Assembly: GCF_004795835.1 (NCBI RefSeq)
Contig: NZ_CP039249.1
Span: 2,517,001-2,581,000, forward strand
Direction of reading: 5' to 3'
Length of the DNA: 64,000 nt
DNA from: Sphingomonas sp. PAMC26645
Lineage (GTDB): Bacteria; Pseudomonadota; Alphaproteobacteria; Sphingomonadales; Sphingomonadaceae
Below the pieces are notes generated by a model. That model was given only the letters and a program-made list of their open reading frames with translations, did no database searches and was not told the origin of the DNA. The first letter of the stretch is position 1. Every line of letters starts with the position of its first letter. Made by a program: the position numbers and the translations under genes. Shown one piece after another: positions 33,560 through 49,929 of the stretch.

Positions 33560-36436
33560 TCAATGACGCGCCTGCTTCCGCGGATAATTGGGCACGGCTG
33601 GCGTATTGGGCGGCGTAGGCTGCACGAACGGGCGTTCGACGACCGGTTGCACGACCTGCGGCGTTTCGGGTGTTTCTACGATCACGGTGCCGGGCCGTTC
33701 TGGCGTCGGATACGTCACGCCACCCTCGACGACCTCGATCGTCGGCGGCGTCGGGATACGCACCGTCACCGGCGGAACCTCCAGAAACGGCCGCGTAGCA
33801 TTCGGTAGGTTCGGAACCGGGGTAACGGGCGGTGTCGCGGTTGGGGGCGGCGCGAGTACTGGCGGAGGCGTCGGCGTTGGTGCCGGTGCCGGTGCCGGTG
33901 CCGGAGCAGGCGCTGGTGCAGGGGCGGGCGCTGGTGCCGGGGCAGGCGCAGGAGCCGGAGCTGGAGCCGGAGCTGGAGCCGGGGCCGGAGCAGGCGCTGG
34001 TGCTGGAGCAGGCGCTGGTGCCGGGGCAGGCGCTGGTGCTGGTGCCGGAGCGGGCGCTGGTGCCGGAGCGGGCGCTGGTGCCGGGGCAGGCGCCGGTGCC
34101 GGTGCAGGCGCCGGTGCTGGAGCGGGCGCTGGTGCCGGAGCAGGCGCCGGTGCCGGAGCGGGCGCTGGTGCCGGAGCGGGCGCCGGTGCTGGAGCGGGCG
34201 CCGGTGCCGGAGCGGGCGCCGGTGCTGGAGCGGGCGCCGGTGCTGGAGCAGGCGCCGGTGCTGGAGCAGGCGCCGGTGCTGGAGCAGGCGCCGGTGCTGG
34301 AGCAGGCGCCGGTGCTGGAGCGGGCGCCGGTGCTGGAGCAGGCGCCGGTGCTGGAGCGGGCGCCGGTGCTGGAGCGGGCGCCGGTGCTGGAGCAGGCGCC
34401 GGCGCCGGTGCTGGAGCAGGCGCTGGTGCTGGAGCAGGTGCCGCAGCCGTGATCGTCCCGGTCGTCCGGAACCCGGCGACGCAGCACGAACTCGCCAGCG
34501 CATATTGGTTCGCGTTCGCGCCGGTCAGCGTGTAGCCGCTGAAGCTGACGCCGATGCCCGTGCCTTCGCCAGTGCTGTCGAACGTCGCGGTCGCATTCGG
34601 GCCGGCGACCAGCGATACGCCGGTCGGCGTCCCCGAGGTGCCGTTGGTGTTGAACCCGCTCAGCACCGCCGCATTGGTGCCGTCGGCGACCTTCTGCGCG
34701 GTCGGGAACAACAGCATCCGCTGGGTGATCGCGGCGCCCTCGGTCAGGACGAACTCGGTCGAGAAGTCGGTCGGCGTGGTGTAAGAGACCGGGTTGTAGT
34801 TGATCGACACCGGCGCCGCGGTGACGGTGGTCGGTGGCGACAGCGCGGAGAACACGATCGTGCCGCCGTTGACGCCCGGCCCGGTGCCGTCCGACCCAGC
34901 GATCAGCGTGAGGCCTACCGGCAGGCCGAGGCTCTGCGCCGGAATTGTCGTGCCGCGAGTCAGCGTGACCGCCGCATCGATCATCACGTCATGGCCGGCG
35001 CACAAGGCGATGTTGCCGTCGGTTGTCGTGATCGCGTGAAACACCTGCACGTTCCGCCCGGCGTTGAGCAGGATGCTGCCGTTGGTGGTGGTCAGGTCCG
35101 CGTTGACGTTCACGTCGCGACCGCAGCAGGCGACGATGTTGCCGTTGGTCGCGGTGATCGGCGCGTTGATGTTGACGTCGCGAAACGCGTTCATCGTCAG
35201 CGTGGTCGGCACGCCCGACGCGGTCCAGGCTACCGCGTCGTTGACGAAGATGTCGCCATTGCCGGTGGTCGTGTCGCCCGCCGCGGGGATCGTGCTGATC
35301 GTGATGCTGGTCGTCACGAGCTGCGCCGACAGCGTCGCGCCCGAGATGTTGCCGCCCGCGCCGATAACGTAATCCTGCGGATCGATCAGCCACATGCCCG
35401 TCGCGCCGGACCGCGCGAAGGTCGACACCTTGGCGCTGTCCGCAACGTTGACGGTCGCCGCCGACGTCTCGATGAAGCCGCCATTGCCGCCGACCGGCGC
35501 GCTGGCGTCGAGCGTACCGGCCAGGCCGACCGTGCCGGTCTTCATGTCGCCGAGCAGCATGATCGTGCCGCCGCGGTTCTGCAACGTGCGTGCCTCGACG
35601 ATGCCGGTGTTGTTGACCGCGGTGTGGAGCAGATCGCCAGCCCCTTGCGCGGTCATCACGACCTTGCCGCCGTCGGCGCGAATCAGCCCGCCATTGCGGA
35701 CCAGCGCGCCGACCGCACCCTTGTCGACCGCGACGTTGAGCAGCCCGTCGCCCGCAACGTCGAGCGTGATCGCCTCGCCGCCCGCCAGCACGACCGTGCC
35801 GAAATTCGCCTTGATCGTGCCGCCGTTACCGACGTTCGCGCCGAGCAACGCGACATAGCCGTTCTTCGCAGTGATCGTGCCGTCGTTCTGCACGCTCGCG
35901 CCGCTCGTGCCCGCGAAACTGTTCTTGCCCGCGAGGAAATCAGCGTCGGAAATGTTCAGCGTCGAGGCCACCAGCCCGCCGACGTTGACGTTGGCCGTCT
36001 GGCCGAACAGAATGCCGTTCGCGTTGACCAGGAACACCTTCCCGTTCGCCGACAGATTGCCGAGGATCACCGAAGGGTCCGAGCCGAGCACACGGTTCAG
36101 CGCAACCGAGCTGCTGGTCGGCTGCTCGAAGACGACGCTCTTGCCCTTGCCGATCGAGAAGGACTGCCAGTTGATCGCCGCGCGGTCGCTGGTCTGCGTC
36201 ACGGTCAGCGAATTGGTACCGGTCGCGATGCTTGCCTGGCCCGCGACGACCTCACCGCCGGTCGGGAGCGTCTGCGCCTCGGCCGGACGCGCCGCCACCG
36301 TGCCCGCGAGGCTGAATCCGATCAGCCACGCGAACCGCGCAAGGCCGGTCGTGCCGAACAAGCCGCCGCGCTTGATGCGCGTGACGGTGGGAGCGGGGCG
36401 ACGGGTGTTTCTGATCGACGAAGGGATGGGGGTCAT
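33560..36436 (-). CDS. TpsA-type exoprotein with filamentous-haemagglutinin N domain and Ala-Pro repeat
   Basis: The 958-residue protein has a long signal peptide (cleavage near ARPAEA, residue 54) and a TPS secretion domain with VNANGILFGQTANVNVGGL (about 137-155; NPNG-like motif reads NANGILFG). A beta-helix-like part runs to about residue 660, with Cys-Cys pairs in IVACCGRDVN and ASSCCVAGF. An uninterrupted Ala-Pro run covers about residues 664-855, and a proline-rich tail ends NYPRKQARH. TpsA proteins are secreted by a cognate TpsB pore, here encoded 57 bases upstream (36494-38176). The Ala-Pro run should form an extended rod that could span the periplasm or cell surface. The L,D-transpeptidase gene follows after one base. 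Confidence 0.88.
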   Translation of the reverse strand: MTPIPSSIRNTRRPAPTVTRIKRGGLFGTTGLARFAWLIGFSLAGTVAARPAEAQTLPTGGEVVAGQASIATGTNSLTVTQTSDRAAINWQSFSIGKGKSVVFEQPTSSSVALNRVLGSDPSVILGNLSANGKVFLVNANGILFGQTANVNVGGLVASTLNISDADFLAGKNSFAGTSGASVQNDGTITAKNGYVALLGANVGNGGTIKANFGTVVLAGGEAITLDVAGDGLLNVAVDKGAVGALVRNGGLIRADGGKVVMTAQGAGDLLHTAVNNTGIVEARTLQNRGGTIMLLGDMKTGTVGLAGTLDASAPVGGNGGFIETSAATVNVADSAKVSTFARSGATGMWLIDPQDYVIGAGGNISGATLSAQLVTTSITISTIPAAGDTTTGNGDIFVNDAVAWTASGVPTTLTMNAFRDVNINAPITATNGNIVACCGRDVNVNADLTTTNGSILLNAGRNVQVFHAITTTDGNIALCAGHDVMIDAAVTLTRGTTIPAQSLGLPVGLTLIAGSDGTGPGVNGGTIVFSALSPPTTVTAAPVSINYNPVSYTTPTDFSTEFVLTEGAAITQRMLLFPTAQKVADGTNAAVLSGFNTNGTSGTPTGVSLVAGPNATATFDSTGEGTGIGVSFSGYTLTGANANQYALASSCCVAGFRTTGTITAAAPAPAPAPAPAPAPAPAPAPAPAPAPAPAPAPAPAPAPAPAPAPAPAPAPAPAPAPAPAPAPAPAPAPAPAPAPAPAPAPAPAPAPAPAPAPAPAPAPAPAPAPAPAPAPAPAPAPAPAPAPAPAPAPAPAPAPAPAPAPAPAPAPAPAPAPAPAPAPAPAPAPAPAPAPAPAPAPAPAPAPAPAPAPTPTPPPVLAPPPTATPPVTPVPNLPNATRPFLEVPPVTVRIPTPPTIEVVEGGVTYPTPERPGTVIVETPETPQVVQPVVERPFVQPTPPNTPAVPNYPRKQARH
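33870..34446 (-). repeat. Hexanucleotide (Ala-Pro) tandem repeat inside tpsA
   Basis: About 96 tandem GCN-CCN hexamers (read on the minus strand) encode Ala-Pro. Silent variation in the third positions gives a higher-order 18-base unit, clearest at about 34220-34400, where nearly identical copies follow one another. Length changes in multiples of six keep the frame. The array leaves several other frames open on both strands, producing long meaningless ORFs. Confidence 0.9.
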
Positions 36437-36493
36437 GTGCGGTATCCTCGGTGGCGGCCGATGGCCGCTGAATTTCGGGGGGTGCTGGTGCGC

Positions 36494-38176
36494 TCAGAAC
36501 GTCTTCGAGAGCTGGAACCAGGCGCGGCCCGACTTGTCGGGGGCCGACGTCGCGTCCTCGTCGCCGAGCTTTCGCGCATAGGTCGCCTTGGCGGCGATAC
36601 CGTACGGTCCCGCCCAGCTCAGCCCGGCGCCGTATGCGCTGCGCTTCGCGTGGTTCGATCCGTCGAAATACGGGTGCTTGACGTAATCGACCTCGCCGAC
36701 GTCGACGAACCCGAACAGCTGAAGCGCACCCGGCACGACCTGCGGCAGGGCCAGTCGCGCCTCGGCGGTGGCGACATAGCCCTGGTCGCCGTACGCCTCG
36801 CCCTCCGGATAGGCGCGCACCGCATAGGCGCCGCCCAGCTCCATCTTCTCGGAAATATCGAGGTTGCTGAACGCGATCTGCCCGCGGGCGGAGGCGAACA
36901 GCGACAGCGGCCCGGCGATCGTCTGCAATCGCGCGAAGCTGAACTGCACTTTCCCGTAGCTGCCGTCGGTGCGTGCGGTCAGCGCATCGACCGAGCGCTC
37001 ATAGGCGCCGCGAATGTCGAGATTGCCGACCGAATAGCTTAGTGAATACGCGCTCCAGCCGCCACCGAGCAGCGTGTCGTGCTCGTCGCCGCTCAGTCCT
37101 GCGGTGACGACCTGCGCGCGGCGGAAAGTGGTGACGTCGACGATGCCGATCTTGTCCTCGAACCATTTCACGTCGCCACCGAGCGTCACGTACAGATTGT
37201 TGTCGCGCGACCGGATCAGCGGATAGCTCGCATAGACGCTGGCGACGTCGGCGTTGCCGCTGCCGTCGAGGCTGTCAAATTCCTTGCCGAGCGAATATTC
37301 GAGATGCGCGAACGCGACGCCGAGCGTGACCTGCCCGATCGGTGCCTGGTACGACGCGCGACCATAGGCCAGCCCCGAGAACGAGGTCAGCGCGCGCAGG
37401 CTCAGCACGTCGCCCGAGCCGGTCGGGTTGTTCCAGTTGACCACGCCGCCGACGCGGTAGGCGCCGGTGTAGCGGTTGCCGGCGTTGTCGGCCTCGACAC
37501 TGCCGGTGATGCTCTGGCCGGGGGTGATCGCGACCAGCAGGTCCGACGTACCGACCGCGGTGCCGGGGCTCAGCGTCGATGATACGCGCACGCCGGGCAG
37601 GTCCGACAGCATCAGCAAGCGGCGCTCGAGCGGCGCGACCGCGACCGGATCGCCAACGTCGAGCCCGGCAAGGATGCCGTTCGCGACGCTGTCGGAAAGT
37701 CGTGACTCGTTCTTAACGCCGACCGCGCCGAAGCGTGCCTCGATGACGGCGATCGTCACTGCGCCGCTCCGTACGTCCTGTGCGGGCAGGTAGGCGTTCG
37801 CGACGAAGTAGCCGCGGCTGGTGTAATAGGCGGTGATCCGCGCGGCGAGCGTCTTCAGGTCGGACAGGTCGAGCTCGCTGTTCGGCGTGAACTGCGACGC
37901 GGCGATCAGGTCGGCCTCGGGAAACAGCGTCGCGCCGGTCACGCGCAGCGACCGCACGAGCGTCTTCGGGCCACCGGTCGCGGCAACGACGACGGGCGTC
38001 TTGTGCTCGAAGCCGAAGTCGGGTGCGGGCGTCTCGTTCAACGGTACGGGCGGGATCTGCTGTAGCTGTCCACCAGCGCCGACGGGCACCTGCGCCTGCG
38101 CCGATTGCGTCGAAATCAGCAAGGCAGCCGGGCTCACAGCCGCAAGCGCGGCCGCCCAAAGGGTCGACTTGTACAT
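36494..38176 (-). CDS. TpsB outer-membrane transporter (ShlB/FhaC/HecB family)
   Basis: ATG 38176 gives 560 residues: signal peptide to about SAQAQ, a proline-rich linker, a POTRA domain starting TLVRSLRVTGATLFPEADL and a second POTRA region with GVKNESRLSDSVANGILAGL. A 16-strand-type barrel follows, with SVEADNAGNRYTG and the L6 loop motif VRAYPEGEAYGDQG (VRGY family), ending in Phe. It should secrete the TpsA protein encoded directly downstream. The in-frame start at 38221 is rejected because the signal peptide begins at 38176. Confidence 0.92.
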   Translation of the reverse strand: MYKSTLWAAALAAVSPAALLISTQSAQAQVPVGAGGQLQQIPPVPLNETPAPDFGFEHKTPVVVAATGGPKTLVRSLRVTGATLFPEADLIAASQFTPNSELDLSDLKTLAARITAYYTSRGYFVANAYLPAQDVRSGAVTIAVIEARFGAVGVKNESRLSDSVANGILAGLDVGDPVAVAPLERRLLMLSDLPGVRVSSTLSPGTAVGTSDLLVAITPGQSITGSVEADNAGNRYTGAYRVGGVVNWNNPTGSGDVLSLRALTSFSGLAYGRASYQAPIGQVTLGVAFAHLEYSLGKEFDSLDGSGNADVASVYASYPLIRSRDNNLYVTLGGDVKWFEDKIGIVDVTTFRRAQVVTAGLSGDEHDTLLGGGWSAYSLSYSVGNLDIRGAYERSVDALTARTDGSYGKVQFSFARLQTIAGPLSLFASARGQIAFSNLDISEKMELGGAYAVRAYPEGEAYGDQGYVATAEARLALPQVVPGALQLFGFVDVGEVDYVKHPYFDGSNHAKRSAYGAGLSWAGPYGIAAKATYARKLGDEDATSAPDKSGRAWFQLSKTF

Positions 38177-38723
38177 GAACACCTCGAAAGTCACCGCGGA
38201 TGGAAGGCACGGGTCTCCCATCCGCAGCAGCGGGAGCCATGTTCAATGAATGTGGGGAGAGCGTCCGAAGCAAGGACGAAGCCTTCGAAGACACTGGAGC
38301 CCGATTATGATCGGGTCTCAAGAATCTGTATGCAAACAGGCGTCATGGGGCTGAAACGGTCCGTCGCGACGTTCGCAACGCTTGGCCTATTCCACCATAC
38401 TTGATCTATGTATGTTACTAAGATCAATTAAAAGATAAATGTATGCTTAATTGATCATTAATTTACAACTATTGCAGTAGAGTAGCAGTCGTGGGCGTGA
38501 CTGGGGCCTGTTACGTGAGCGTGTAGATGACGTTGACGTAAAGAGCAGGGGGATACTGTCAGTCGGGACGGTCGGCAGCGGTATGCTGTTGCTGGAAGTG
38601 GTTAGGCTGCCGCAGGCACGCGTCGTAATCGGCATCCCTCGCACGCGGGGACACGGTACGTCCGCCACCGATTGTTTCGCGGCCGTGGCGCATAGCGTGC
38701 CGCAGCTATCCTCGATCGTTCCG
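38177..38723. other. Intergenic region, AT-rich island with inverted repeat
   Basis: This 547-base stretch separates the PepSY gene (ends 38724) from tpsB. Most of it is unremarkable, but 38399-38475 is strikingly AT-rich for this genome. It contains a perfect 10-bp inverted repeat, GATCAATTAA (38422-38431) and TTAATTGATC (38447-38456). It probably holds the promoter of the secretion operon and a binding site for a regulator or xenogeneic silencer. The AT-rich stem is unlike an intrinsic terminator. No convincing gene was seen. Confidence 0.55.
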
Positions 38724-40106
38724 CTACCGCTTCACGGCAACGAGCAGGACCAACCGGTCGATCAGGAAGATCACGATCACCGACATGCCCAGGATCGGGA
38801 ATAGTATCCCGGCGAGAATCAGGATGGCGATGGCGCCCTTGATCCTCGTCGGGGAGACGCGCGCTGGCGCGGCGAGGCGGCCCGTCGGGCGGCGCTTCCA
38901 CCACATCACGACGCCGCTGATCACGAGCAGCACGATCGCGATGCACGTCGCCAACATCACGAGTTGGTTCGCGAGTCCGAAGTAATTGCCCATGTGCAGC
39001 TGGACGCCGAGCTCGATCGCCTTCGCCGCCCAGCCATAATCGGGGTAGCCGACCTCGCGGATCAGGGCGCCGGTCCAGCGATCGAAATACAGTGTACGCT
39101 GCCCCTGCGGCTGATCGGGATAGGTGTAGGCCGTATAGACGCCGGTCGGTCCGCTCGGCAGGAACAGGCGATACGCACCCGCGACGTGGTGATTGCGCGT
39201 CACCGAGTTTGCGATCCGGTCGATCCCGGCCACCGCTGCATCGTCGCGGACGGCCATGGTCATCTCGTGGCCAGAATGACCGGCATGCTCGGAAGCTGCC
39301 GTCGATGTTGGCATGGGCGCGAGTTCCATCGTCCACTGTGCTTCGCCGAGCGCGGTCTTCATCGGCACGCTCGCCGGGGCATTGTGGGTGCGGTTCGATG
39401 CCGGGTAGCCGATGCCGAGCGCCGCGGTGCCGCGGTTGAGCAGGTCGCCCTGGATGCCGGCCCAGGGGAGGCCGGTCAGCAGCAGGAACGCGATGAACGC
39501 GACGGACCAGACGCCGATCACCGCGTGCAGGTCGCGCCAGAACAGGCGCCCTCTCGCACCGAGCCTGGGATAGAGGATACCCCCGAACCCACCGCGACCG
39601 CGCGGCCACCACAGATACACTCCGGTCACGATCAGGACGAGCGCCCAGCAGGCGGCAAGCTCGACGATCCGATCGCCGACCGTGCCGAGCGTCAGCGATC
39701 CGTGCATCTCGTCGGCGAACCCTACCAGCGTGCGGGCGTAGATAGTCGAGCCGAGCACGCGGCCCGTTCCCGGATCGACGGCCACGCGGAGCGGCTCGCC
39801 GTGATCGGGGATGACGAAGACGACCGCCGAGCGGTTGGGCGCGCCCGGCAGGTCGATCCGGGTTGCAGCCCCCGGATGAGCCTTCAGCGCGGCATCGATC
39901 ATCCGCGACGGCGGCACCTGCGTTGCATGGACCGCGACGAAGCGCTGCGCCGGATACAGCGCATCATCGATCTCGTCGTTGAACAGATAGATCGAGCCCG
40001 TGACGGCGAGGATCAGCAGGAAGGGGGCGACGATCAGGCCTGCATAGAAGTGCCAGCGCCACAGCGCGCGGTATGCTTTCGGATCGACCGAACCGGTGAA
40101 TGCCAT
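38724..40106 (-). CDS. PepSY-associated membrane protein (first)
   Basis: A 460-residue PepSY-TM protein: N-terminal helix in YRALWRWHFYAGLIVAPFLL, a periplasmic PepSY-like part, helices around WALVLIVTGVYLWWPRGRGG, a second periplasmic loop, and C-terminal helices to IVIFLIDRLVLLVAVKR. The loop near residues 265-285 contains SEHAGHSGHEMTM, a likely metal-binding patch. Family members next to TonB receptors are thought to reduce or release metal from imported complexes in the periplasm. It follows the siderophore-type receptor gene by 14 bases and is the last gene of the train that starts at the cobalamin riboswitch. Confidence 0.88.
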   Translation of the reverse strand: MAFTGSVDPKAYRALWRWHFYAGLIVAPFLLILAVTGSIYLFNDEIDDALYPAQRFVAVHATQVPPSRMIDAALKAHPGAATRIDLPGAPNRSAVVFVIPDHGEPLRVAVDPGTGRVLGSTIYARTLVGFADEMHGSLTLGTVGDRIVELAACWALVLIVTGVYLWWPRGRGGFGGILYPRLGARGRLFWRDLHAVIGVWSVAFIAFLLLTGLPWAGIQGDLLNRGTAALGIGYPASNRTHNAPASVPMKTALGEAQWTMELAPMPTSTAASEHAGHSGHEMTMAVRDDAAVAGIDRIANSVTRNHHVAGAYRLFLPSGPTGVYTAYTYPDQPQGQRTLYFDRWTGALIREVGYPDYGWAAKAIELGVQLHMGNYFGLANQLVMLATCIAIVLLVISGVVMWWKRRPTGRLAAPARVSPTRIKGAIAILILAGILFPILGMSVIVIFLIDRLVLLVAVKR

Positions 40107-40120
40107 CTGGAAACCCCTGC

Positions 40121-42346
40121 TCAGAAATGCGTGGAAAGCGCGATTTCGACACTGCGTGGCGCGCCGATATAGACGTTGGTCGTCGGGTAGCCCGAATACT
40201 CGCCGTAGAACGCGTCGGTCAGGTTGCGGCCGCGGACCGAAACCGAGGCCTGCGGTGCGACCTGATAACTGATCGACGCATCGATTGTCGTATGCCTGCG
40301 GACGAAATAGCTGTTGGCGGTGTCGGTGTAGAAGCCGGACACGTGCCGTACGAACCCGCCGAGAGTCACCGGAATTGCCTTGATCGTATAGAGCGCCGAG
40401 CCGCTGACGGTGGTCGATGGCGTGTTGATCGGCCGGTTGCCGGCGCGGTCGATGCGGGCGCCGGCGATCAGTTCGCTTAATTGATCATATTGCGCATCGG
40501 TGTAGGCAGCGCCCGCCGATAGCGAGAGCGCGTTGGTCACCGCCGCGCCGATGTTGAGCTCGACGCCTTGGGACGATTGCTCGCCGCCTTGAATGGCTTG
40601 CTGCGGATTGTTCGGATCGCGCGTGAGGATGTTGGTCTGCTCGATCCGGTATGCGGCGCCGGTCATCGTCACCCGCTTGGCGAACGCGGAGGCCTTGAAA
40701 CCGACCTCGTACGAGCGGCCCTTCGTCAGCTTGTAGGTCGTGTTGACGATCGACTGGAGCAGGATCGAGGATACCGGCGTGACCGCGGTCGTGTATTGGC
40801 CGTACAAGGTGATGCCCGGCGTAAGGTCGTAGGTGGTACCGATACGCCACGAGAACGGATCATAGGTCGGCGTGCCCCGCGTGACCGCGCCGTTCGCGTT
40901 GAGGTTGGTGATGACGCGGGTCAGGTCGATGTGATCGTACCGCGCACCGCCGACCAGCAGCCAGCCCGGGGTCAGGTTGAGCGCATCCTCGGCGAACACC
41001 GACGCCGTCTTGAGCTTCGAGTCATAAACGACGTTGGTCGTCGAATAGGCGGCATCGCTGGTCGGGAAGACGCCGACGATTGGCGCGAACGGATCGACGT
41101 TCGCGATCCGCACAGCCGCATTGCCACCGACCGGGCTTTGCTGGCGCGGGTTGACGAAGTTCGTGTCGTTATATTCGCCGCCCAGGCTGAACCGGTTGCG
41201 CAGTCCTGCGATCACGCTGTCGTTGGTGATCACCAGCCGCTCGTTCCAGAACTTGTGGTCGTGGTAGATCCGCTGGACCGACCGCGCGAAGCTGCCATTG
41301 GGGAAGGCGGCTGTGGGGGCGGTGAAGTTCTGATCGCCGCTCAGCACGAAGTCGCGCTTGGCGTGATACCAGGTGATGTCGTTCGCTACCGACCAGCCGC
41401 CGCCGATCGCATAATCGATCCGCGACCGCAGCGTCGTGTCGCGTGCGCCGGAATAGGCACCGTACGGATTATAGTTGCGACGGCGCAGTGCCTTGTCGAG
41501 CACCATGCCGTTCTGGCTACGCAATGCGTCACTCGGATCGCGCGCGACGGCGGCGGAGACGAACGGCAGCCCTTGATAGCTGCTGTCGTATCGGTCCTCG
41601 TAATGGTCGACGGCGAAGAGCAGGCTCAGGTCGGCCGACGGCTTGAACAGGATGCTGCCCGTCAGGCCGACCGAGCGCGTCGCATTGTCGTCGACGTCGT
41701 ACAGGCTGGCGGAATGCATGTAGCTCGCGTCCGCGCGGACTGCGACGGTGTCCGACAGTTTCAGGTTTACGCCGCTGGCTGCGGTCACCGTGTCGAAGCT
41801 GCCGACGCTCAGCAATCCATCGAGGTGGTCGCCGTCGAACGTCGGCTTGCGGGTGACCTTGTTGATGACGCCAGCCAGCGCGCCTTCGCCGTAGAGCACC
41901 GAGGCTGGCCCCTTGATCACTTCGATCCGGTCGAAATGCCACACATTGGTATCGCGCTGGACCACGGTCGAGGTAGAAATACGGACGCCGTCCTGCAGGA
42001 TCGAGACGGCGCCGCCCGAAAACCCGCGCAACGTCACGACCGCGGGGTTGCCGGGGACGTTGCCAGCGATCGCGCCGACGACGCTGTTGAAGGCCTCGCG
42101 CGCGGTGCGCAGCCCCTGCACCTGCATGTCCGCCTGCGTCAGCGTCTCGACGGTCGCGGGTGTCTCGCGCACCGACAGGCCGAGCCGGCTGCCGGTATCC
42201 GATTTGCGATCGAGCTTCAGCTGGTCGCGCTGGCCGGTGACGACGATCTCGGCCTTCTTGTCGATCGCTTCGTCCTTGTCAGACGCGTGGGCGGTCCCCG
42301 AGAACGCGACGATCGATGCCGACGCGAAGACTATGGTTTTGAACAT
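40121..42346 (-). CDS. TonB-dependent siderophore-type receptor
   Basis: ATG 42346 gives 741 residues: signal peptide ending GTAHA, TonB box EIVVTGQ, and a plug of the siderophore-receptor subtype (SVRETPATVETLTQADMQ, VTLRGFSGGAVSILQDGVRI, EVIKGPASVLYGEGALAG). The barrel ends in STHF. No STN domain is present, so it does not signal to a sigma factor. RBS-like AGGG lies upstream of the ATG. The gene is fourth in the leftward train and is coupled by a 14-base gap to a PepSY protein. The ligand could be a ferric siderophore, another metal chelate or a corrinoid; sequence alone does not decide. Confidence 0.9.
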   Translation of the reverse strand: MFKTIVFASASIVAFSGTAHASDKDEAIDKKAEIVVTGQRDQLKLDRKSDTGSRLGLSVRETPATVETLTQADMQVQGLRTAREAFNSVVGAIAGNVPGNPAVVTLRGFSGGAVSILQDGVRISTSTVVQRDTNVWHFDRIEVIKGPASVLYGEGALAGVINKVTRKPTFDGDHLDGLLSVGSFDTVTAASGVNLKLSDTVAVRADASYMHSASLYDVDDNATRSVGLTGSILFKPSADLSLLFAVDHYEDRYDSSYQGLPFVSAAVARDPSDALRSQNGMVLDKALRRRNYNPYGAYSGARDTTLRSRIDYAIGGGWSVANDITWYHAKRDFVLSGDQNFTAPTAAFPNGSFARSVQRIYHDHKFWNERLVITNDSVIAGLRNRFSLGGEYNDTNFVNPRQQSPVGGNAAVRIANVDPFAPIVGVFPTSDAAYSTTNVVYDSKLKTASVFAEDALNLTPGWLLVGGARYDHIDLTRVITNLNANGAVTRGTPTYDPFSWRIGTTYDLTPGITLYGQYTTAVTPVSSILLQSIVNTTYKLTKGRSYEVGFKASAFAKRVTMTGAAYRIEQTNILTRDPNNPQQAIQGGEQSSQGVELNIGAAVTNALSLSAGAAYTDAQYDQLSELIAGARIDRAGNRPINTPSTTVSGSALYTIKAIPVTLGGFVRHVSGFYTDTANSYFVRRHTTIDASISYQVAPQASVSVRGRNLTDAFYGEYSGYPTTNVYIGAPRSVEIALSTHF

Positions 42347-42493
42347 GTGAATCCCTGCTGGACCCGTCCGCACATCGAGGTGCGGATCGGATACCGTCAT
42401 CCCCGCGGACTTGCCGCGCGTGTCGAAACCGGTCCGCCGACGTGGTGGACCAGTCGAAGCATCGTGATCGCGCGCGGTCCGAAGACCGACGGA

Positions 42494-42919
42494 TCACGCG
42501 GCGGGGAAGGGCGGGGGGCCTCGTAAGGGTGGCCGAAGATAGGCTCGCGCGGTGATCGGTACCGCGGTTCTCACGCGGAAGACGAGGCCGACGATGAACG
42601 CGATTGCGATCGCCAGCAGCACCGGATCGACCGCTGCCAGCGACGGCGCGGTCAGGCCGGAAAAGGCGCAGGGCATTTCCCGCTCCTGATGATCGGACTT
42701 GCCCGGATGATGCGCCATGCCCGGCATCGGCATCGCCATCATCGGTGCCATCACTTTCTGCGCGGGCGCGATGCCGCCGCAGATCTCGATCGTCACGCGC
42801 CCCCCGGAGACGACCGGCATGAACCCGGCGGGCACCAGGATTTTCATCACCAGCGCGCACGCAAGCACCCAAGCCGCCAGCTGGCGATGGTTCAAGAGAA
42901 GGCGACGGAGTGCTGCCAC
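42494..42919 (-). CDS. DUF2946-like membrane protein with His/Met-rich segment
   Basis: A 141-residue protein with an N-terminal helix (AAWVLACALVMKILVPAGFMP), the family element EICGG, a Met/His-rich stretch (MMAMPMPGMAHHPGKSDHQ), a MPCAFSG element and a C-terminal helix. This is the layout of DUF2946 proteins, which often accompany copper or other metal uptake receptors. The Met/His-rich segment and the two Cys suggest metal binding on the periplasmic side. It lies 64 bases after the second PepSY gene and 147 bases before the siderophore-type receptor. Confidence 0.75.
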   Translation of the reverse strand: MAALRRLLLNHRQLAAWVLACALVMKILVPAGFMPVVSGGRVTIEICGGIAPAQKVMAPMMAMPMPGMAHHPGKSDHQEREMPCAFSGLTAPSLAAVDPVLLAIAIAFIVGLVFRVRTAVPITARAYLRPPLRGPPPFPAA

Positions 42920-42983
42920 GACGCACGACTACGCGCTCGCGGTGGCGCTGTCACGTGGACGAAACGTCCCGTTAAAGCCTGGA

Positions 42984-44426
42984 TCAGAAGCGTCTCAACC
43001 GCTTCCAGCCGAGCCAGATGCCGCTGACCGACGTCACCAAGCCAACCAGCGAGAACAGCCAGATCAGCAGGTCCCACGCCGGCCGGTGCCGCGTCAGTAT
43101 GGTCAGATCCCATTTGTGCAGCAGGTCGAACGCCCAGCGGTATGTCCGCCTGCGTCGATCGATCCTGGCCAGCACGTCGCCGGTCGCGGGGTCGATATAC
43201 AGCCACGTCGCGGCGGGATCGTCGAAGCGCAATCGGAGCATCGGCAGGCGAGGGAGACCACCGGAATCGTACCAATATGCGTCGGCCTCGGTCAACCGGT
43301 CGATCGCGACCGGCTGCGTGCTAGCGACGAGCACCCGTGCGGCGACAACGATCGCATTTGGCTTTGGTTGGGACGGCACGAGCGTCGCCGCGTCTAGGAT
43401 CCGACGTCGACCATCCAGATACTCGAGCACCACGAGGGGTGTCGCCGCATAGTCGGTAATCCTCGCGCGGACGGCTCCCGCACCGACATGGCGGAGCCGG
43501 TCGAGGGAGACGGCCGGCATCAGGCCAGCGGCAGCGTAGGCACGCACCGCCCGCGCATCCGGTTCCGTACTTCGGAACAGGTGCCAGGGATCGACCGACA
43601 ACCATCCGCTGAAGATCCACGCGATCAGGAAACCGCCGCCGACCAGCCCCGCGACATGATGCCACAGCATCCACCCGCGATAGGGCGTCATCCGCCCACC
43701 CTTGAACCGGCGTGTGCCGATGCGTGCGCGGAGGATACCGATCCAGATGCCCGCGAGTGCCGCGGCGATACACGGCCCCGAAACCCACGTGACAACCTGT
43801 CGCCAGGCGGCGTTGTCCTGGCGCAGCACGGTCGGATACAGCCAGTGCGGCACCGATCCCAGCCAATTCCAGAACCGCTCGGTCCGGTCGGTCGACTGGA
43901 CGATCCCGCCGGTCGAAGACGACACGTAGAGATTGGTGCCGCCCTCGTCCTTAAATGTTGCTTTCCACAGCGGGCGATGTCGGTCGAAACCACCCGACAC
44001 CGTCCACTGATCCCGCATGATCCGCTCGACATTCAGGACGTGTGCTCGCCCGAAACGGCTTGCGACGCGGACGGCATAAGCTGCGTCAGCCGGAGCCAGA
44101 TGCCGGCCCTTGCTTGCGGGAATGGTATGCCGCTCGTCGTCCCAGCCCTGGCTTCGCCAGACCGGGACGCCGTCGCGCATCTCGAGCAACTGCTCTTGCG
44201 GCATTCGCCCCCCATCGAGCGGTGGCGGCACGGTCACGGCGGACCAGTCGATCGCCTCGGCTCTCGCCAGAGTCTCGGTTGGTGAGAGCGAAGGATAGGG
44301 CACGTACAGCATCACGAGGCCCGACCCGAACCACATCGCGAAGAACAGGCAACTGGCAATGCCGACCCATCGGTGCACGAGGTACAGCCACCGGCGCGCG
44401 AGCCTGCCGGCGTTAGAAACCGGCAC
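42984..44426 (-). CDS. PepSY domain membrane protein (second)
   Basis: The GTG at 44426 gives 480 residues and overlaps the receptor stop by 14 bases; upstream in-frame sequence is antisense-like receptor code. Helices: ARRWLYLVHRWVGIASCLFF at the N terminus, QVVTWVSGPCIAAALAGIWI and HHVAGLVGGGFLIAWIFSGW in the middle, and LIWLFSLVGLVTSVSGIWLG at the C terminus. PepSY-like periplasmic domains lie between them, with ATWLYIDPATGDVLARIDR near the end. The paired HRWVG, HHVAG and LLHKWD histidines could ligate haem, as in PepSY reductases. It probably assists use of the substrate imported by the receptor encoded just upstream. Confidence 0.88.
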   Translation of the reverse strand: MPVSNAGRLARRWLYLVHRWVGIASCLFFAMWFGSGLVMLYVPYPSLSPTETLARAEAIDWSAVTVPPPLDGGRMPQEQLLEMRDGVPVWRSQGWDDERHTIPASKGRHLAPADAAYAVRVASRFGRAHVLNVERIMRDQWTVSGGFDRHRPLWKATFKDEGGTNLYVSSSTGGIVQSTDRTERFWNWLGSVPHWLYPTVLRQDNAAWRQVVTWVSGPCIAAALAGIWIGILRARIGTRRFKGGRMTPYRGWMLWHHVAGLVGGGFLIAWIFSGWLSVDPWHLFRSTEPDARAVRAYAAAGLMPAVSLDRLRHVGAGAVRARITDYAATPLVVLEYLDGRRRILDAATLVPSQPKPNAIVVAARVLVASTQPVAIDRLTEADAYWYDSGGLPRLPMLRLRFDDPAATWLYIDPATGDVLARIDRRRRTYRWAFDLLHKWDLTILTRHRPAWDLLIWLFSLVGLVTSVSGIWLGWKRLRRF

Positions 44427-46593
44427 GAAGCGACACGTCCAAGGCGCGTGGCCGCCCCAGCACCCATTGCTGCACGCCGTAGCTGTTGATCGCATAATCC
44501 TTGTCGAACAGATTGTAGACATGCACGTCGACCACGACCCGCGGCGTCACCGCGTAGGACAGCGTCGCGTCGACCGTCGCATAGCCCGGAATGCGGAAAA
44601 CATTGGCGTTGTCGGAGAATCTTCGCCCGACATAGCGAAGTCCGGCGCGCGCCTGGACTGCCGGTGTCGCGGTCCAGCTAAGCCATAGGTTCGCTGTCGT
44701 CCCGGGGACGTCGGGTGGCGTGTTGCCCGCAAAACTCCTTTCGCCCGAGACGAAGTCGTCGAACCGCGCCTCCAATACACTACCGTTGGCATCGATCCCG
44801 AACCCTGCAGGCAAGTCCAGCGACACCGCGGCCTCGATACCCTTCGCGGATCGCTGCCCGACCTGCTCGATCGGGCTCGTCGGCGTCAGTTGCGACAACA
44901 GTCCTTTCTTGACGATGCGATAGGCGGCGATCGTCGCGGTGCCGCGGCCACCCAGGAACACGGCCTTGGCCCCCGCCTCGACCTGATCGCCCGTCGCGTT
45001 GCTGAACTGGACCTGCCCGGTGGTGTAGGTCGTCAGCGTCCCCAGCGGATCGACCCCGGTGGCATATTGCGCATAGAACGAGACCGTCGGGACTGGCTGA
45101 TACACCGTCCCGACCCGCCATGTCGTGTTGCCTAGCCGCTTGTCGAGCGCGAAGCTTTCGGTCGGGACGGCGACAGTCGAGTCGATCGTCCAGCGCCGTA
45201 TCCGATCGCACTCGTAGCGAATGCCGCCGACGATCGAGACATGCTCGCCAACCTTCAGCCGGTCCTCCGCGAAGATCGCATATTCGTTCGTCCGCGTGCG
45301 ATACCGCGGCGCGATCCCCTGGGTGTCGACGATCACGCCAGGATCGAACACGAACGGATCGACCACCGAGACTTGCGGGTCGGCGCCGAAATTGTGCGAA
45401 TAGGTGAGCTTGACGAGGTTCACATCGAACCCCGCGACGACATCGTTGGTCACGCCGTCCGCGATCCGCGTCTTGAGCGTAACGCCACCCTGGTCGCCCC
45501 ATTGCGTCTGATCGTGAACGATCCCGGTCATGTCGGTGCGATAAATGCCCCCGGGCGTGGCGCGCACGTCATTCGCGCCATTGGGGCAGAAGCCGTCCGC
45601 CGCCAGCCAGCAATAGCTTTCGAGGTTGAGCCACTCGCGCTTGGAGGTGAGCCGATAGGCTTGGTTGCTGACGGTGAGCGTCTCGCTCGGCTGCCAATCG
45701 ATCTGGAGGCTGGTCCGGTTGTCGCGGTAGCGGACATGGCCGTCGCGCGTGTTGTAGTTGCGGTCGCGATTGTCGTGGTCGAGCCGTCCGTCGATCAGCG
45801 GCGTGCCGAAATAGCGCATCGGGTTCTGGTTGCCATAATCATCGCGCACCGTGACGACGAGCCGATCGGTCGGTGCCCAGCGCAACGTCCCCGACAGCGC
45901 GTAGCTGCGCGACTGCCCGCGATCGACATATCCGTCGGACCGCCTGTAGCTGCCATCGACACGGTAGGAGAGATGCTCGTCGAGCGGTCCACCGGCACCG
46001 GCAGCGACGTGGAAACTGTCCTGCGATCCATAGCCGATCTCGCCGTCCACATCGGTGTGCCGTGTATTCGGCTTGCGCATCAGCACGTTGACCGCGCCGC
46101 CTAGCGCACCTTGCCCGTACAGGACGGAAGCCGGACCGCTGAGCACGTCGATCCGCTCGACCATCCACGGATCGCTCGGAAAGGTGATCGTGCCGGCCGC
46201 AGGAAAGAGGCGGATACCGTCGATCAGTTGCAACACCGAACCCTGACCGCTGAACCCGCGCGCGGCGAGCGCCGTGCCACCATTGCCGAGATTGGCGACG
46301 CTGGTGATGCCGGGCGCGCGGCTCGTCGCGTCGTTCACGGACACGTCGCCGCGCGCCCGGATCGTGTTGCCGTCGATCGTCGACAGCGTTGCCGGCGTTT
46401 CGAGCGGCGACAGGTTCAGGCGGCTGCCGGTCGAGTTCGGAACCGTAAGGTCGGCCTGATGGCGGCCAGTGACGAGGATATCGTCGGCGTTACCCGCCGA
46501 GCGATCCTCCCCAACCTGCGCGCTGGCCAGGGATGGTAGAAAGGTGACGAGCAACGACGCGGCAAACGCGGCGCACGGTGATGGAAACGACAT
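44413..46593 (-). CDS. TonB-dependent receptor under cobalamin riboswitch
   Basis: ATG 46593 gives 726 residues: signal peptide ending SLASAQ, TonB box DILVTGR, plug of the siderophore-receptor type (LSPLETPATLSTIDGNTI, ALAARGFSGQGSVLQLIDGI, DVLSGPASVLYGQGALGG), barrel ending SLRAGF. An extracellular loop contains a Cys pair (SYCWLAADGFCPNG). A cobalamin riboswitch lies in its 5' leader, so B12 should repress it; receptors so controlled usually import cobalamin or cobalt chelates. Its plug resembles siderophore receptors more than BtuB, and no btuFCD genes are nearby. Frame upstream of 46593 is leader RNA, not protein. Confidence 0.9.
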   Translation of the reverse strand: MSFPSPCAAFAASLLVTFLPSLASAQVGEDRSAGNADDILVTGRHQADLTVPNSTGSRLNLSPLETPATLSTIDGNTIRARGDVSVNDATSRAPGITSVANLGNGGTALAARGFSGQGSVLQLIDGIRLFPAAGTITFPSDPWMVERIDVLSGPASVLYGQGALGGAVNVLMRKPNTRHTDVDGEIGYGSQDSFHVAAGAGGPLDEHLSYRVDGSYRRSDGYVDRGQSRSYALSGTLRWAPTDRLVVTVRDDYGNQNPMRYFGTPLIDGRLDHDNRDRNYNTRDGHVRYRDNRTSLQIDWQPSETLTVSNQAYRLTSKREWLNLESYCWLAADGFCPNGANDVRATPGGIYRTDMTGIVHDQTQWGDQGGVTLKTRIADGVTNDVVAGFDVNLVKLTYSHNFGADPQVSVVDPFVFDPGVIVDTQGIAPRYRTRTNEYAIFAEDRLKVGEHVSIVGGIRYECDRIRRWTIDSTVAVPTESFALDKRLGNTTWRVGTVYQPVPTVSFYAQYATGVDPLGTLTTYTTGQVQFSNATGDQVEAGAKAVFLGGRGTATIAAYRIVKKGLLSQLTPTSPIEQVGQRSAKGIEAAVSLDLPAGFGIDANGSVLEARFDDFVSGERSFAGNTPPDVPGTTANLWLSWTATPAVQARAGLRYVGRRFSDNANVFRIPGYATVDATLSYAVTPRVVVDVHVYNLFDKDYAINSYGVQQWVLGRPRALDVSLRAGF

Positions 46594-46599
46594 ATAAAA

Positions 46600-46631
46600 G
46601 CCCCCGAGGCGTCGGACGAACCGGCAGGGGC
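46600..46631 (-). promoter_or_regulatory. Leader hairpin covering the receptor ribosome-binding site
   Basis: Read on the minus strand, GCCCCUG pairs with CGGGGGC (7 bp including one G-U), followed at once by UUUUAUAUG, where AUG is the receptor start. The 3' arm holds the only G-rich Shine-Dalgarno candidate. The hairpin can therefore hide the RBS, or act as an intrinsic-terminator-like stem with its short U run. It is the likely expression platform of the upstream cobalamin riboswitch. Confidence 0.6.
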
Positions 46632-46837
46632 CTGTCACCGAGCACGAGGCTCGAACGTGCGCCGGCGAGCGCGCCACGAGCGGATTGCCCGAGCACGTCC
46701 AAGCGAACGGGACCAGTCGTGCCCGACGGACGCCATCGCGACCGGCACGCCTGCCCATGCGGTCCCCACCGCACACATCGTCGCTCAGACGGAGTACCGT
46801 GCCTCGGCCATCCCCTGGACTAGGCAAGAGCGACCAC

Positions 46838-47046
46838 ACGCCGGCAGGTCTCCTGGCTCACGGGTCAACGCCCGATGCACAACCTTCCCAGACCGATCGG
46901 TCCAGTGGCTGGTGGCCGGGGACTTTGCCCGACCACGCACGTGCATCACGCTCGCCGCTTACAGTTGCAGGGACAGCCTCGGCATCAGGTGGACGAAGCC
47001 ACCCTCACCGCGTTCCCTATTAAGCTCCTCGCGGAGCACCGGTGCG
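46838..47046 (-). promoter_or_regulatory. Cobalamin riboswitch
   Basis: On the minus strand the conserved elements occur in order: UAAUAGGGAA (47022-47013), GGUGAGGGUGGC, the core GGCUGUCCCUGCAACUGUAA (within 46978-46951), CCACUGG (46918-46912), GGGAAGG (46889-46883) and the B12 box AGCCAGGAGACCUGCCGGCG (46858-46839). These are the signature blocks of the adenosylcobalamin riboswitch class. It ends about 245 bases before the receptor start. The rest of 46594-47148 is leader and, upstream of 47046, probable promoter; no gene was seen there. Confidence 0.95.
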
Positions 47047-47148
47047 ATCATGCCGACCCATCCGAGAACGGGCCGACGGGCAAGGTGTAGCGTGACGTTC
47101 CGACGCGGGCAATCGACGATCGCGTAACGATCTTGGCGATCCGTCGAC

Positions 47149-47450: not shown

Positions 47451-48544
47451 CTATCGCTGCGCCCACATCTCGGGATGCGCGTCGATATAGCCCGACAGGG
47501 CGGTCGTGATCCGCGCATCGTCGGCGGTCGACGGATGCGAATGGCATCCCGTGAACGCGAGCCCCGTGACGGGCACGAACGCGATATTGCGCTGCCCTTC
47601 CGCCTTCAAACGCGCGGCGACCTTGCCGACTTCCGCCGCGATCTCGCCCCCGGCCATGTCGGTTGCCCACAGGACGACATGTGCGTCCGGATCGCGGGCG
47701 CGGAGGCGTTTGACGAAGTCGACATAACGCAGCTCGTAATCGGCATGGAGCGCCTCGCGCGTCTTCCACGGCTCGCCGGGATGGAGCGGCGTGGTGAAGT
47801 CGTTGGTGCCGAGCGCGATCACGAACAGACGCGGGTGCCACGCCGGGTCGACGTAGCGCGTCGCCTTGTCGAACAGCGTGAAGGGATAGGCAACGGGAAG
47901 CGTGTCGGCCGCCATGCCATTGTAATTGCGGACGATCCCGCGGCCAGAGATGGTGTTGACCTGATAGTCCGCGCCGTACCGCCTCGCCGCGAGCGCCGGC
48001 ATGGCTTGCGAGGTATCGGTGGTCGCCCACACCTCCGCTTCGGTGCAGTCGCGCTTGGTCGAGACGTTGCCATAGCCGACGGTGTGGGAATCGCCGATAA
48101 ACTCGATCTGCCGCGCTCGGGCGGGGGCGGGCAACGGGCGCGTCCCGGACGCCGCGTAAAATCCGCCGAAGACGGTCGGTGCGGCCTGGCTCTCGCTGAC
48201 GACGTCGACGCGTATTGCGTGGCGCCCGTCGGCGAGGCCGGTGACGCGGTAGAGGCCTGGCTTGGGCTTGAAGAGCGTCGTCGGGGAGGACCGTCCACCG
48301 TGATAAGCAGGATGACATCCCCGTCGCCGATCTTCAGCAGGATGCCTGCGCCCCGAAAATTCGTCTCGAAATAGGTGCCCGGCCATTGGCGTCGATAGCC
48401 GTCCGGCGTCCGCTCGACCCGGCCGCCGATATGCATCGGAAGCGCGGCACCGGGCTTGCTCGATACCGCGGTGACGGTGATCGGCGTCGCGACCGCCGAT
48501 GTCGACAGCAGCGCTGCACCGAGCAGGCCCAGAACCGTACGCAT
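47451..48544 (-). pseudogene. CE2-like SGNH carbohydrate esterase, frameshifted
   Basis: ATG 48544 (GGAG eight bases upstream) starts a signal peptide (MRTVLGLLGAALLSTSAVA) and an N-terminal jelly-roll domain (GGRVERTPDGYRRQWPGTYF). After ILLITVDG the frame is lost near 48280-48295. It continues in another frame with LFKPKPGLYRVTGLADGRHA, then the SGNH domain: GDSHTVGYGN (catalytic Ser), GTNDFTTPL and GCHSHPSTADD (catalytic His). The domain order is that of CE2 acetyl-xylan/mannan esterases. The span is 1094 bases, one short of a multiple of three, so a single-base loss restores one 364-residue protein. It may be a recent mutation or a sequencing error. It follows the GH5 gene by 35 bases. 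Confidence 0.8.
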
Positions 48545-48579
48545 ACCATGTGCTCCAGTTCGATCCGACACGGCCGGCA

Positions 48580-49929
48580 TCAGAGCGCCGCCATTGCTGC
48601 GGCATGCGCCCGGATCACGTTTTGCGTCGAGGCGTCGCTGTCGAACACGCCGTACCAACCCTGCGGCTCGTGCGGCGGGTCACCCATATAGCCGAGGTCG
48701 CCGCGCTGGAACCGGTGGTCGGCATGCGGTGTCCGCGCCTCGCCGTTCCACGCCCAGAAGTTCGAGCCCGTGAGTGGTCCGCCGGACCTCGCATTGGCTT
48801 CGATCGCCGCATAGATCTGGCGATAGAAGCGATCCTTATAGACCGTCGTGATGGTCGGATCATAGGCGGTCTTCCCGTCGCGCGGATAGCCGAACTCCTC
48901 GATCACCAGCGGCTTGCCGAGCGTCGTGGCGAGCCGGATATGCGCGTCGATATAGCCGGCGACCTTGGCCGCGCCCGCGTCATAGGTACCGGCGAGATCA
49001 CCCGCGTCCATCCAGGTCCAGTTGTTGGGCCAGATATGCGTCGTGAGGTAATCGATCGACGGAGAACGGTGCGCGGCGAGCACGACGTCCTCGCGCTCGA
49101 TCGAACCCTTGAGCCCCTCCGAACCGGTCGAGACGAGGTGGTTGGGATCGAGCGTCTTGATGTACCGCGCGGTCTCGTCGATCCAGCGGTAGAAAGCAGG
49201 CAGGTTGGGTATGGCCACCACGGCGCCACCGGCGGGGCGTGGCTCGTTCGCCAACTGCCACGCCATGATCGTCGGATCCGCGGCGTAGGCGACGCCCGTC
49301 ACGGTGTTGGTCCGCGAGACGATCGCGCGGATATAGTCGCGGTACATCGCCTGCGCCTGGCCGTTGGCATAGAACGCGGTGTTCCAGTCGGCGAACGCGG
49401 GCCACGGATGCGCGGGGTCGTTCATGTTGATGAACTTGCCGCCGTTGACCCACGACAAATAGGTCATCATTCCGCCCGACCATTCCCAGAAGTTGGCCAG
49501 GTAGATCACCCCGGTCATGTCGCGCTTCGCCATCTCGGCGAGCGTCCAGTCGAGGCCCTTGAGCAAGTCTTCGTTATAAGTCGCGGTCTTGTCGCGGAAG
49601 CCGGGCGTAATAGAGTTCTTCAGCGGCGAGAGTTCCGCCGACCCGAGGATGCGGAGGTTGCGCACGCCGAGCGCCTTCAAGCGGTCGAGTTCACGGCCGA
49701 GACGCGCGCGGTTGCCGTATGCGGTCTCCGCGCCGAGCCACGCGCCGTACCAGATGTTGGCGCCAGCATAGCGGTAGAGCTCGCCGCCACGCCGAAAATG
49801 GGTTCCGTCGACCGTGACGAACGGCGATGCTGCGGGCAATCCAGCCAGCCGACCGTTGTTCGTGCAGCCAGCGGCCAGAGCAACGCCCCCCAGCAACGCC
49901 GCACGTCGACCGATCATCGCCTCGTCCAC
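48580..49929 (-). CDS. GH5 family mannan endo-1,4-beta-mannosidase-like lipoprotein
   Basis: A 449-residue glycoside hydrolase of GH5 (subfamily 7-like). A twin-Arg-bearing signal with lipobox ALAAGC (Cys22) points to an outer- or inner-membrane lipoprotein. The barrel shows RYAGANIWYGAWLG, WQLANEPRP with the acid/base Glu, DYLTTHIWPNNW, and VIEEFGYPRDG with the nucleophile Glu. GTG 49929 follows AAGGGGGG five bases upstream; ATG 49917 is the alternative. With the downstream CE2-like esterase it would deacetylate and cut acetylated mannan. The 269 bases to the divergent poxB gene show nothing clear. Confidence 0.85.
   Translation of the reverse strand: MDEAMIGRRAALLGGVALAAGCTNNGRLAGLPAASPFVTVDGTHFRRGGELYRYAGANIWYGAWLGAETAYGNRARLGRELDRLKALGVRNLRILGSAELSPLKNSITPGFRDKTATYNEDLLKGLDWTLAEMAKRDMTGVIYLANFWEWSGGMMTYLSWVNGGKFINMNDPAHPWPAFADWNTAFYANGQAQAMYRDYIRAIVSRTNTVTGVAYAADPTIMAWQLANEPRPAGGAVVAIPNLPAFYRWIDETARYIKTLDPNHLVSTGSEGLKGSIEREDVVLAAHRSPSIDYLTTHIWPNNWTWMDAGDLAGTYDAGAAKVAGYIDAHIRLATTLGKPLVIEEFGYPRDGKTAYDPTITTVYKDRFYRQIYAAIEANARSGGPLTGSNFWAWNGEARTPHADHRFQRGDLGYMGDPPHEPQGWYGVFDSDASTQNVIRAHAAAMAAL

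Follow-up and report, generated by a model that had tools for sequence, protein, structure and literature searches.

A cobalamin riboswitch, TonB receptor and PepSY unit of Sphingomonas as a candidate importer of a cobalt chelate, followed by a copper-type gene set

The route by which trace cobalt crosses the outer membrane of Gram-negative B12 makers is an open question, and a 2021 review states, in its accessible text, that no cobalt-specific outer-membrane receptor had been confirmed (PMC7689651). A gene train in Sphingomonas sp. PAMC26645, the genome of which is one contig of 4.28 Mb, bears on this question. We analysed a stretch of 64,000 nucleotides from this contig (the window; NZ_CP039249.1, positions 2,517,001 to 2,581,000). 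The train lies on the minus strand of the window and consists of a cobalamin riboswitch aptamer, a TonB-dependent receptor (TBDR1), a PepSY_TM membrane protein (PepSY1), a DUF2946 protein, a second receptor (TBDR2) and a second PepSY_TM protein (PepSY2). What does a B12-sensing leader control here? We consider it rather likely that the riboswitch, TBDR1 and PepSY1 (module 1) serve the B12-repressed import of a cobalt chelate that is released reductively in the periplasm, and that the other three genes (module 2) are a copper set placed behind them. Module 1 is a defined, recurring and partly plasmid-borne cobalt-receptor candidate that adds a likely redox step. The parts of the train are as follows.

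46826..47056, minus strand: cobalamin riboswitch aptamer (RF00174, 94.1 bits, full length; B12 box at 46843-46859)
46594..46825, minus strand: leader from the aptamer to TBDR1, a putative expression platform (from sequence and fold)
44413..46593, minus strand: TBDR1, TonB-dependent receptor of 726 aa, siderophore-receptor type, CrtA-like (Pfam plug and barrel; predicted start)
42984..44426, minus strand: PepSY1, PepSY_TM membrane protein (PF03929, 46.6 bits, cut-off 28.8; predicted start)
42494..42919, minus strand: DUF2946 protein, CruR-like, rich in His and Met (PF11162, 28.0 bits, cut-off 23.7)
40121..42346, minus strand: TBDR2, TonB-dependent receptor of 741 aa, CrtA-like (Pfam plug and barrel)
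38724..40106, minus strand: PepSY2, PepSY_TM membrane protein, CrpH/FoxB-like (PF03929, 256.8 bits)

The initial annotation had placed a complete cobalamin riboswitch at the head of a train of two TonB receptors, two PepSY proteins and a DUF2946 protein. This description was borne out. The aptamer matched RF00174 over model positions 1-189, against a gathering cut-off of 31.5 bits (E 4.1e-22), and was the sole Rfam match in the window at gathering scores. All five proteins exceeded the curated Pfam cut-offs. The annotated gaps were reproduced as well, with 64 bases between PepSY1 and DUF2946, 147 between DUF2946 and TBDR2, and 14 between TBDR2 and PepSY2. TBDR1 probably starts at the ATG at 46593, 232 bases past the aptamer, and PepSY1 probably starts at the GTG at 44426, overlapping the TBDR1 stop codon (44413-44415); the PepSY1 protein versions analysed start at 44420 or 44402. 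The two receptors share 28% identity (E 1e-69), while PepSY1 and PepSY2 are scarcely similar (best blastp E 0.012).

A homology search with PepSY1, in which the closest named relatives were Sphingomonas, was used to follow the train through other genomes, and the best 79 of 126 relatives were studied as loci (numbered L below). Riboswitches were called by a B12-box rule, which recovered all five riboswitches of the source genome. By this rule, 53 of the 79 loci carry a riboswitch. Gene maps placed it directly ahead of the receptor in 52, and at an equal distance in L058, where PepSY1 itself was not called. The 53 come from Sphingomonas, Novosphingobium, Bradyrhizobium and other Bradyrhizobiaceae, Tardiphaga, Rhodopseudomonas, Filomicrobium and Cupriavidus. 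Counted without the second motif and on both strands, the box matched 42 times in 7.45 Mb of Markov control sequence (five controls for each locus), or ~8 per 79-locus copy. Rfam confirmed the riboswitch in all seven loci submitted (L041, L054, L065, L072, L081, L090 and L094). Among the 26 box-less loci, of which 24 were scanned with Rfam (L102 and L104 were left out), an aptamer was found in L101 alone, where it sits downstream of the PepSY gene and ahead of cob genes; seven of the 26 (L043, L060, L086, L089, L097, L101 and L103) have less than 2.5 kb of DNA upstream of the match, which is too short for a call. L101 is from a Nitrospirales metagenome-assembled genome, with the PepSY1-like gene, then the cobalamin riboswitch and cob genes, at 330-2943.

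The gene caller placed a same-strand gene of more than 550 aa immediately before PepSY1 in 70 of the 79 loci, and the TBDR1 cluster covered 72 of the 80 clustered stretches, window included; the stretches outside these counts include cut loci and loci with PepSY1 uncalled. On a quick tree of the 79 PepSY1 rows, the riboswitch label was clustered, with 10 changes (at least 7 forced) compared to 21.5 after shuffling, an effect that near-copies would also produce. Because L037 and L072 sit on a suspiciously long branch, probably from a wrong reading frame, the tree serves this statement only. PepSY1 homologs also occur on 16 plasmid records. Six of these were examined (H1-H5 and H9), and all six carry riboswitch, receptor and PepSY gene, the receptor in L125 being an unannotated open frame. 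Two of the six plasmids were typed as conjugative, one as mobilizable and three as non-mobilizable. One Bradyrhizobium plasmid copy has tonB-exbD-exbB divergently upstream of the unit, and in pTomTYG46b genes annotated as cation efflux adjoin it. Two neighbours of other copies stand apart from these results: a sul1 RNA (RF03058, 78.5 bits) near the riboswitch unit of S. paucimobilis (L054:14611-14666), and a sugar-type ATP-binding cassette set near the L072 and L084 units, which we took as chance.

A DUF2946 gene follows PepSY1 in only eight of the 79 loci, and the full trio of DUF2946, receptor and PepSY in seven, all of them close relatives; the eighth, L027, has the DUF2946 gene and then short frames only. 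We set aside the initial annotation's single five-gene B12 route as the main reading, since so few loci have the trio behind the pair. That the five genes form one B12-controlled operon with one function is very unlikely in our assessment. The short gaps fit such an operon, as does the gene order kept in the window and the seven close relatives, and in two further Sphingomonas loci (L050 and L051, ~6940-7430) the unit has divergent neighbours, namely a DUF2946 gene and a gene of 781 aa. Between 38200 and 47400, promoter-like and terminator-like matches (one and three) did not exceed those in shuffled sequence (means 1.7 and 4.5), which is also compatible with one transcript. However, other neighbours flank the pair in the remaining loci, L027 lacks the rest of the trio, and one of the weak terminator-like matches lies at the DUF2946 gene start (42919-42902). 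The source genome also has a second DUF2946-receptor-PepSY trio (C1:4001171-4005181; L009:5226-9126), with no B12 box within the 14 kb fetched, and this trio matches a published copper operon. Riboswitch, TBDR1 and PepSY1 are a conserved unit, and the DUF2946 trio is set apart from it.

The published operon is cruR-crtA-crpH of Bordetella, which encodes a DUF2946 protein, a TonB receptor and a PepSY_TM protein according to the accessible parts of three reports (PMC9426467, PMC12914433, PMC13038864). Module 2 has the same gene order, and module 1 bears the riboswitch in the place of CruR. In the Protein Data Bank (PDB), the closest sequence to TBDR2 is 9rvq (281 bits). This entry is labelled simply as a TonB-dependent receptor; we take it to be CrtA because its length and six numbered site residues agree with the available description of CrtA, which lists the conserved site as Y130, W265, E337, Q356, H358 and R395 (PMC12914433). 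The 9rvq chain carries all six at CrtA numbering. In TBDR2, a His aligns with H358, and Y130 and W265 are unmatched. PepSY2 matched the sequence of FoxB (7abw) with E 1.1e-11, and its His residues aligned to four FoxB His. The DUF2946 protein was compared with CruR. It lacks the CXXC copper motif and has Cys84-Ala-Phe-Ser (CXXS) instead; it carries RGPP at 133-136 near the C terminus, compared to the RAPP arrest motif of CruR; and it is not first in its gene run, since PepSY1 lies just before it, whereas CruR is first in its operon and is followed by a long gap. The 147 bases after the DUF2946 gene would fit such a gap. The spacing from Cys84 to Arg133 is 49 residues, equal to that of C90 to R139 in B. 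pertussis CruR as given in the accessible literature. Judged by gene order, DUF2946, TBDR2 and PepSY2 look like a separate copper-type set. In two Achromobacter loci, a DUF2946 gene with the canonical CruR motifs CPLC and RAPP stands directly before a PepSY1-type pair (L102:7102-7518 and L104:7109-7519). A nickel (nik operon) reading of these two loci was dropped after a scan of L102 found a branched-chain-amino-acid-type permease and the DUF2946 gene upstream. They look copper-type because the upstream genes of L102 include DUF2946 and no nik operon.

TBDR1 is the part of module 1 that would meet the substrate. The closest PDB sequence to it is again 9rvq (260 bits), which is the best solved-structure match of both receptors, and it matched the siderophore-receptor model TIGR01783 at 235 bits (cut-off 223.5). 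BtuB shares with TBDR1 the TonB receptor type and the cobalamin riboswitch control. The resemblance is best in the plug region: no BtuB structure scored above 50.7 bits (residues 77-222), and TBDR1 reached 97 bits with the BtuB model TIGR01779, the cut-off of which is 599.7, with the best stretch at 55-223 of 726. A BtuB-type receptor elsewhere in the genome (L006) scored 313 bits over 5-625 of 632 with this model, also below the cut-off. Residues E325 and H360 of TBDR1 align with CrtA E337 and H358 and are conserved in 100% and 94% of the 52 riboswitch-linked receptors. The full CrtA site is not present, as Y130, W265 and R395 are unmatched and the alignment at Q356 is ambiguous. CrtA receptors are described as having a PepSY_TM gene downstream in more than 75% of loci (PMC12914433, accessible text), and this arrangement is true of TBDR1 and TBDR2 alike. 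On sequence grounds, TBDR1 is closer to the copper-chelate receptor CrtA than to BtuB.

If TBDR1 carried a corrinoid, such as a cobamide or a precursor poorly handled by BtuB, PepSY1 could reduce its cobalt and ease ligand exchange. We regard this as unlikely. Control by a cobalamin riboswitch is a hallmark of btuB, and in B. jicamae and B. lablabi (L065 and L079) the unit adjoins a riboswitch-headed btuB-btuCD-like run. The match to BtuB, which is best in the plug region, and the nearness to CrtA weigh against a corrinoid, as does the content of the source genome. The genome has five cobalamin riboswitches, four of them outside the train. One (L006) heads a BtuB-type receptor, a periplasmic binding protein, a BtuC-like permease and an ATPase, named by best family matches that are all below curated NCBIfam cut-offs. 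Another heads DUF1636-cobT-cobS (L007), a third a NicO/HoxN permease, and the fourth a cobW-cobN-cobH run in which further cob genes were read by eye (L008). The train itself lacks btuFCD and cob genes, as the initial annotation had noted, and a btuB-type operon and B12 synthesis genes are found elsewhere, each headed by riboswitches of their own. Given this operon and these synthesis genes, the source cell in all likelihood makes B12 and has a corrinoid receptor already, and a further route for corrinoids is not what it would obviously need.

The distribution of the unit points to B12 synthesis. Among 100 relatives (G numbers), window genome counted, seven have a riboswitch-adjacent PepSY1 homolog, one of them 37% identical: the window genome, G009, G025, G052 and G054 by position, and G024 and G058 through the box-bearing loci L028 and L030. 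Four weaker PepSY1 matches (E ~1e-12; G001, G003, G085 and G095) were not followed up in this count. CobH (PF02570) was found in six of the seven and in 14 of the other 93 (Fisher p 2e-4). In a set of 50 drawn from the 79 named genomes, it was found in 29 of 32 with the riboswitch compared to 3 of 16 without (p 1.3e-6), L043 and L060, which are cut loci without CobH, being omitted from the latter group. Both tests ignore kinship, and the two genome sets overlap. The only CobH-less Sphingomonas with the unit (L059, which is G025) has a riboswitch-NicO-cobW-cobN run that ends at the contig end. Neither CobH nor CobK was found in two Cupriavidus genomes with the unit, a point in favour of corrinoid import; these genomes retain BtuB-like and late cobalamin genes, and in them NicO or CbtA lies behind a riboswitch match or close to one. 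Many relatives carry cobalamin riboswitches but no CobH, and the unit is concentrated in the CobH-bearing genomes instead, which argues against corrinoid import. Of the corrinoid or cobalt-chelate route first proposed for the whole train, what stands is a route for TBDR1 and PepSY1, the pair that recurs widely with the riboswitch, and cobalt fits it better than a corrinoid.

Cobalt genes lie beside the unit in five of the 79 loci: CbtA in L065 and L079, CbiM in L080, L081 and L094 (in L094 under its own riboswitch), and CobF in L081. PepSY1 homologs with no B12 box within 4.5 kb upstream were found in G023, G034 and G043 and as the second copy of G054. In three of these four fetched runs (G023, G034 and G054:C6) a NicO-family permease is present, with a CobW-type GTPase also in G034; two of these permeases scored far under the HoxN and NicT model cut-offs. 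It is improbable, in our view, that the unit instead imports nickel, zinc or iron, for which demand could rise when B12 is short, for example through B12-independent isoenzymes. The NicO family also moves nickel, the siderophore-receptor match of TBDR1 is above cut-off, and in some Bradyrhizobium loci a CobW-type GTPase occurs close to the unit together with an amidohydrolase-like gene, which may point to zinc. Against another metal stand the CbtA, CbiM and CobF neighbours and the CobH tie, which together indicate cobalt for corrin synthesis.

PepSY1 would supply the reductive step. His 16, 192, 254, 255 and 435 (numbered from 44420) are invariant in all 33 aligned rows. An AlphaFold2 model built from these rows had a mean predicted local distance difference test score of 86.6, and the top PDB match of this model in Foldseek was FoxB (7abw; E 3.7e-5) with a loose superposition; in VIA-align, single-domain matches ranked above FoxB. 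The PepSY1 sequence had no match in a sequence search of the PDB. Four of the invariant His correspond to the FoxB His aligned with PepSY2, by chain order and helix position only, and we take these four FoxB residues to be haem ligands. Conserved His hold two haems in FoxB, and CrpH has similar His, according to the accessible text of PMC13038864. PepSY1 is probably a FoxB-kind membrane protein that holds two haems.

Chelates of Co(III) are inert and those of Co(II) are labile. We infer the following order of events for cobalt import. When adenosylcobalamin is scarce, the leader would permit production of TBDR1 and PepSY1. TBDR1 may then use TonB energy to bring a small cobalt chelate, presumably as Co(III), through the outer membrane. 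In the periplasm, PepSY1, with its two probable haems, could convert the inert Co(III) by reduction into labile Co(II), which a NicO-type permease (of CbtAB or CbiM type elsewhere) would move inward for corrin synthesis. Module 2 would be a CruR-CrtA-CrpH-like copper set behind module 1. In that case, the TonB receptor would be paired with a haem reductase in a dedicated import system for cobaltic chelates. One receptor-reductase chassis appears with either a CruR leader gene that senses copper or a cobalamin riboswitch, and therefore a swap of leader may accompany a swap of metal; we offer this broader proposal tentatively.

Within the TBDR1 leader, a hairpin of a C-rich and a G-rich arm (~46598-46632) could mask the G-rich stretch ahead of the TBDR1 ATG. 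Both arms are conserved in L032 and L034, and a weak terminator-like match (46616-46603) overlaps the hairpin. The predicted stability of the fold was no better than that of shuffles (z -0.8 and -0.3).

Riboswitch-headed TonB cobalt receptors have been predicted before (PMC7689651). The predicted receptors share with module 1 the riboswitch before the receptor and, in some genomes, nearby cobalt genes. In Novosphingobium aromaticivorans, such a receptor is followed by a NiCoT permease and CobW, whereas the partner here is a PepSY_TM protein; these receptors were compared by description. IcuA of Methylobacterium, also compared by description, is like TBDR1 a TonB receptor with a cobalt link, having been linked to improved cobalt uptake, and neither a PepSY partner nor a riboswitch is named for it in the accessible text (PMC3621897). 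No PepSY partner of a riboswitch-headed TonB receptor was found in the literature searched, with most subscription journals outside its scope, and the riboswitch-receptor-PepSY unit was not found in the accessible parts of PMC4176598, PMC9426467, PMC3621897 and PMC7689651.

Two gene groups flank the train. Directly upstream of the riboswitch (47451-49929) lie a GDSL esterase and a glycoside hydrolase family 5-like protein, the cellulase match of which (21.4 bits) is below the cut-off of 23.5. On the other side, the window holds an exoprotein (33560-36436) that combines a two-partner secretion domain with a long Ala-Pro repeat, and immediately upstream of it a ShlB/POTRA secretion partner (36494-38221). 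Going by its domains, this gene pair (33560-38221) resembles a two-partner secretion system.

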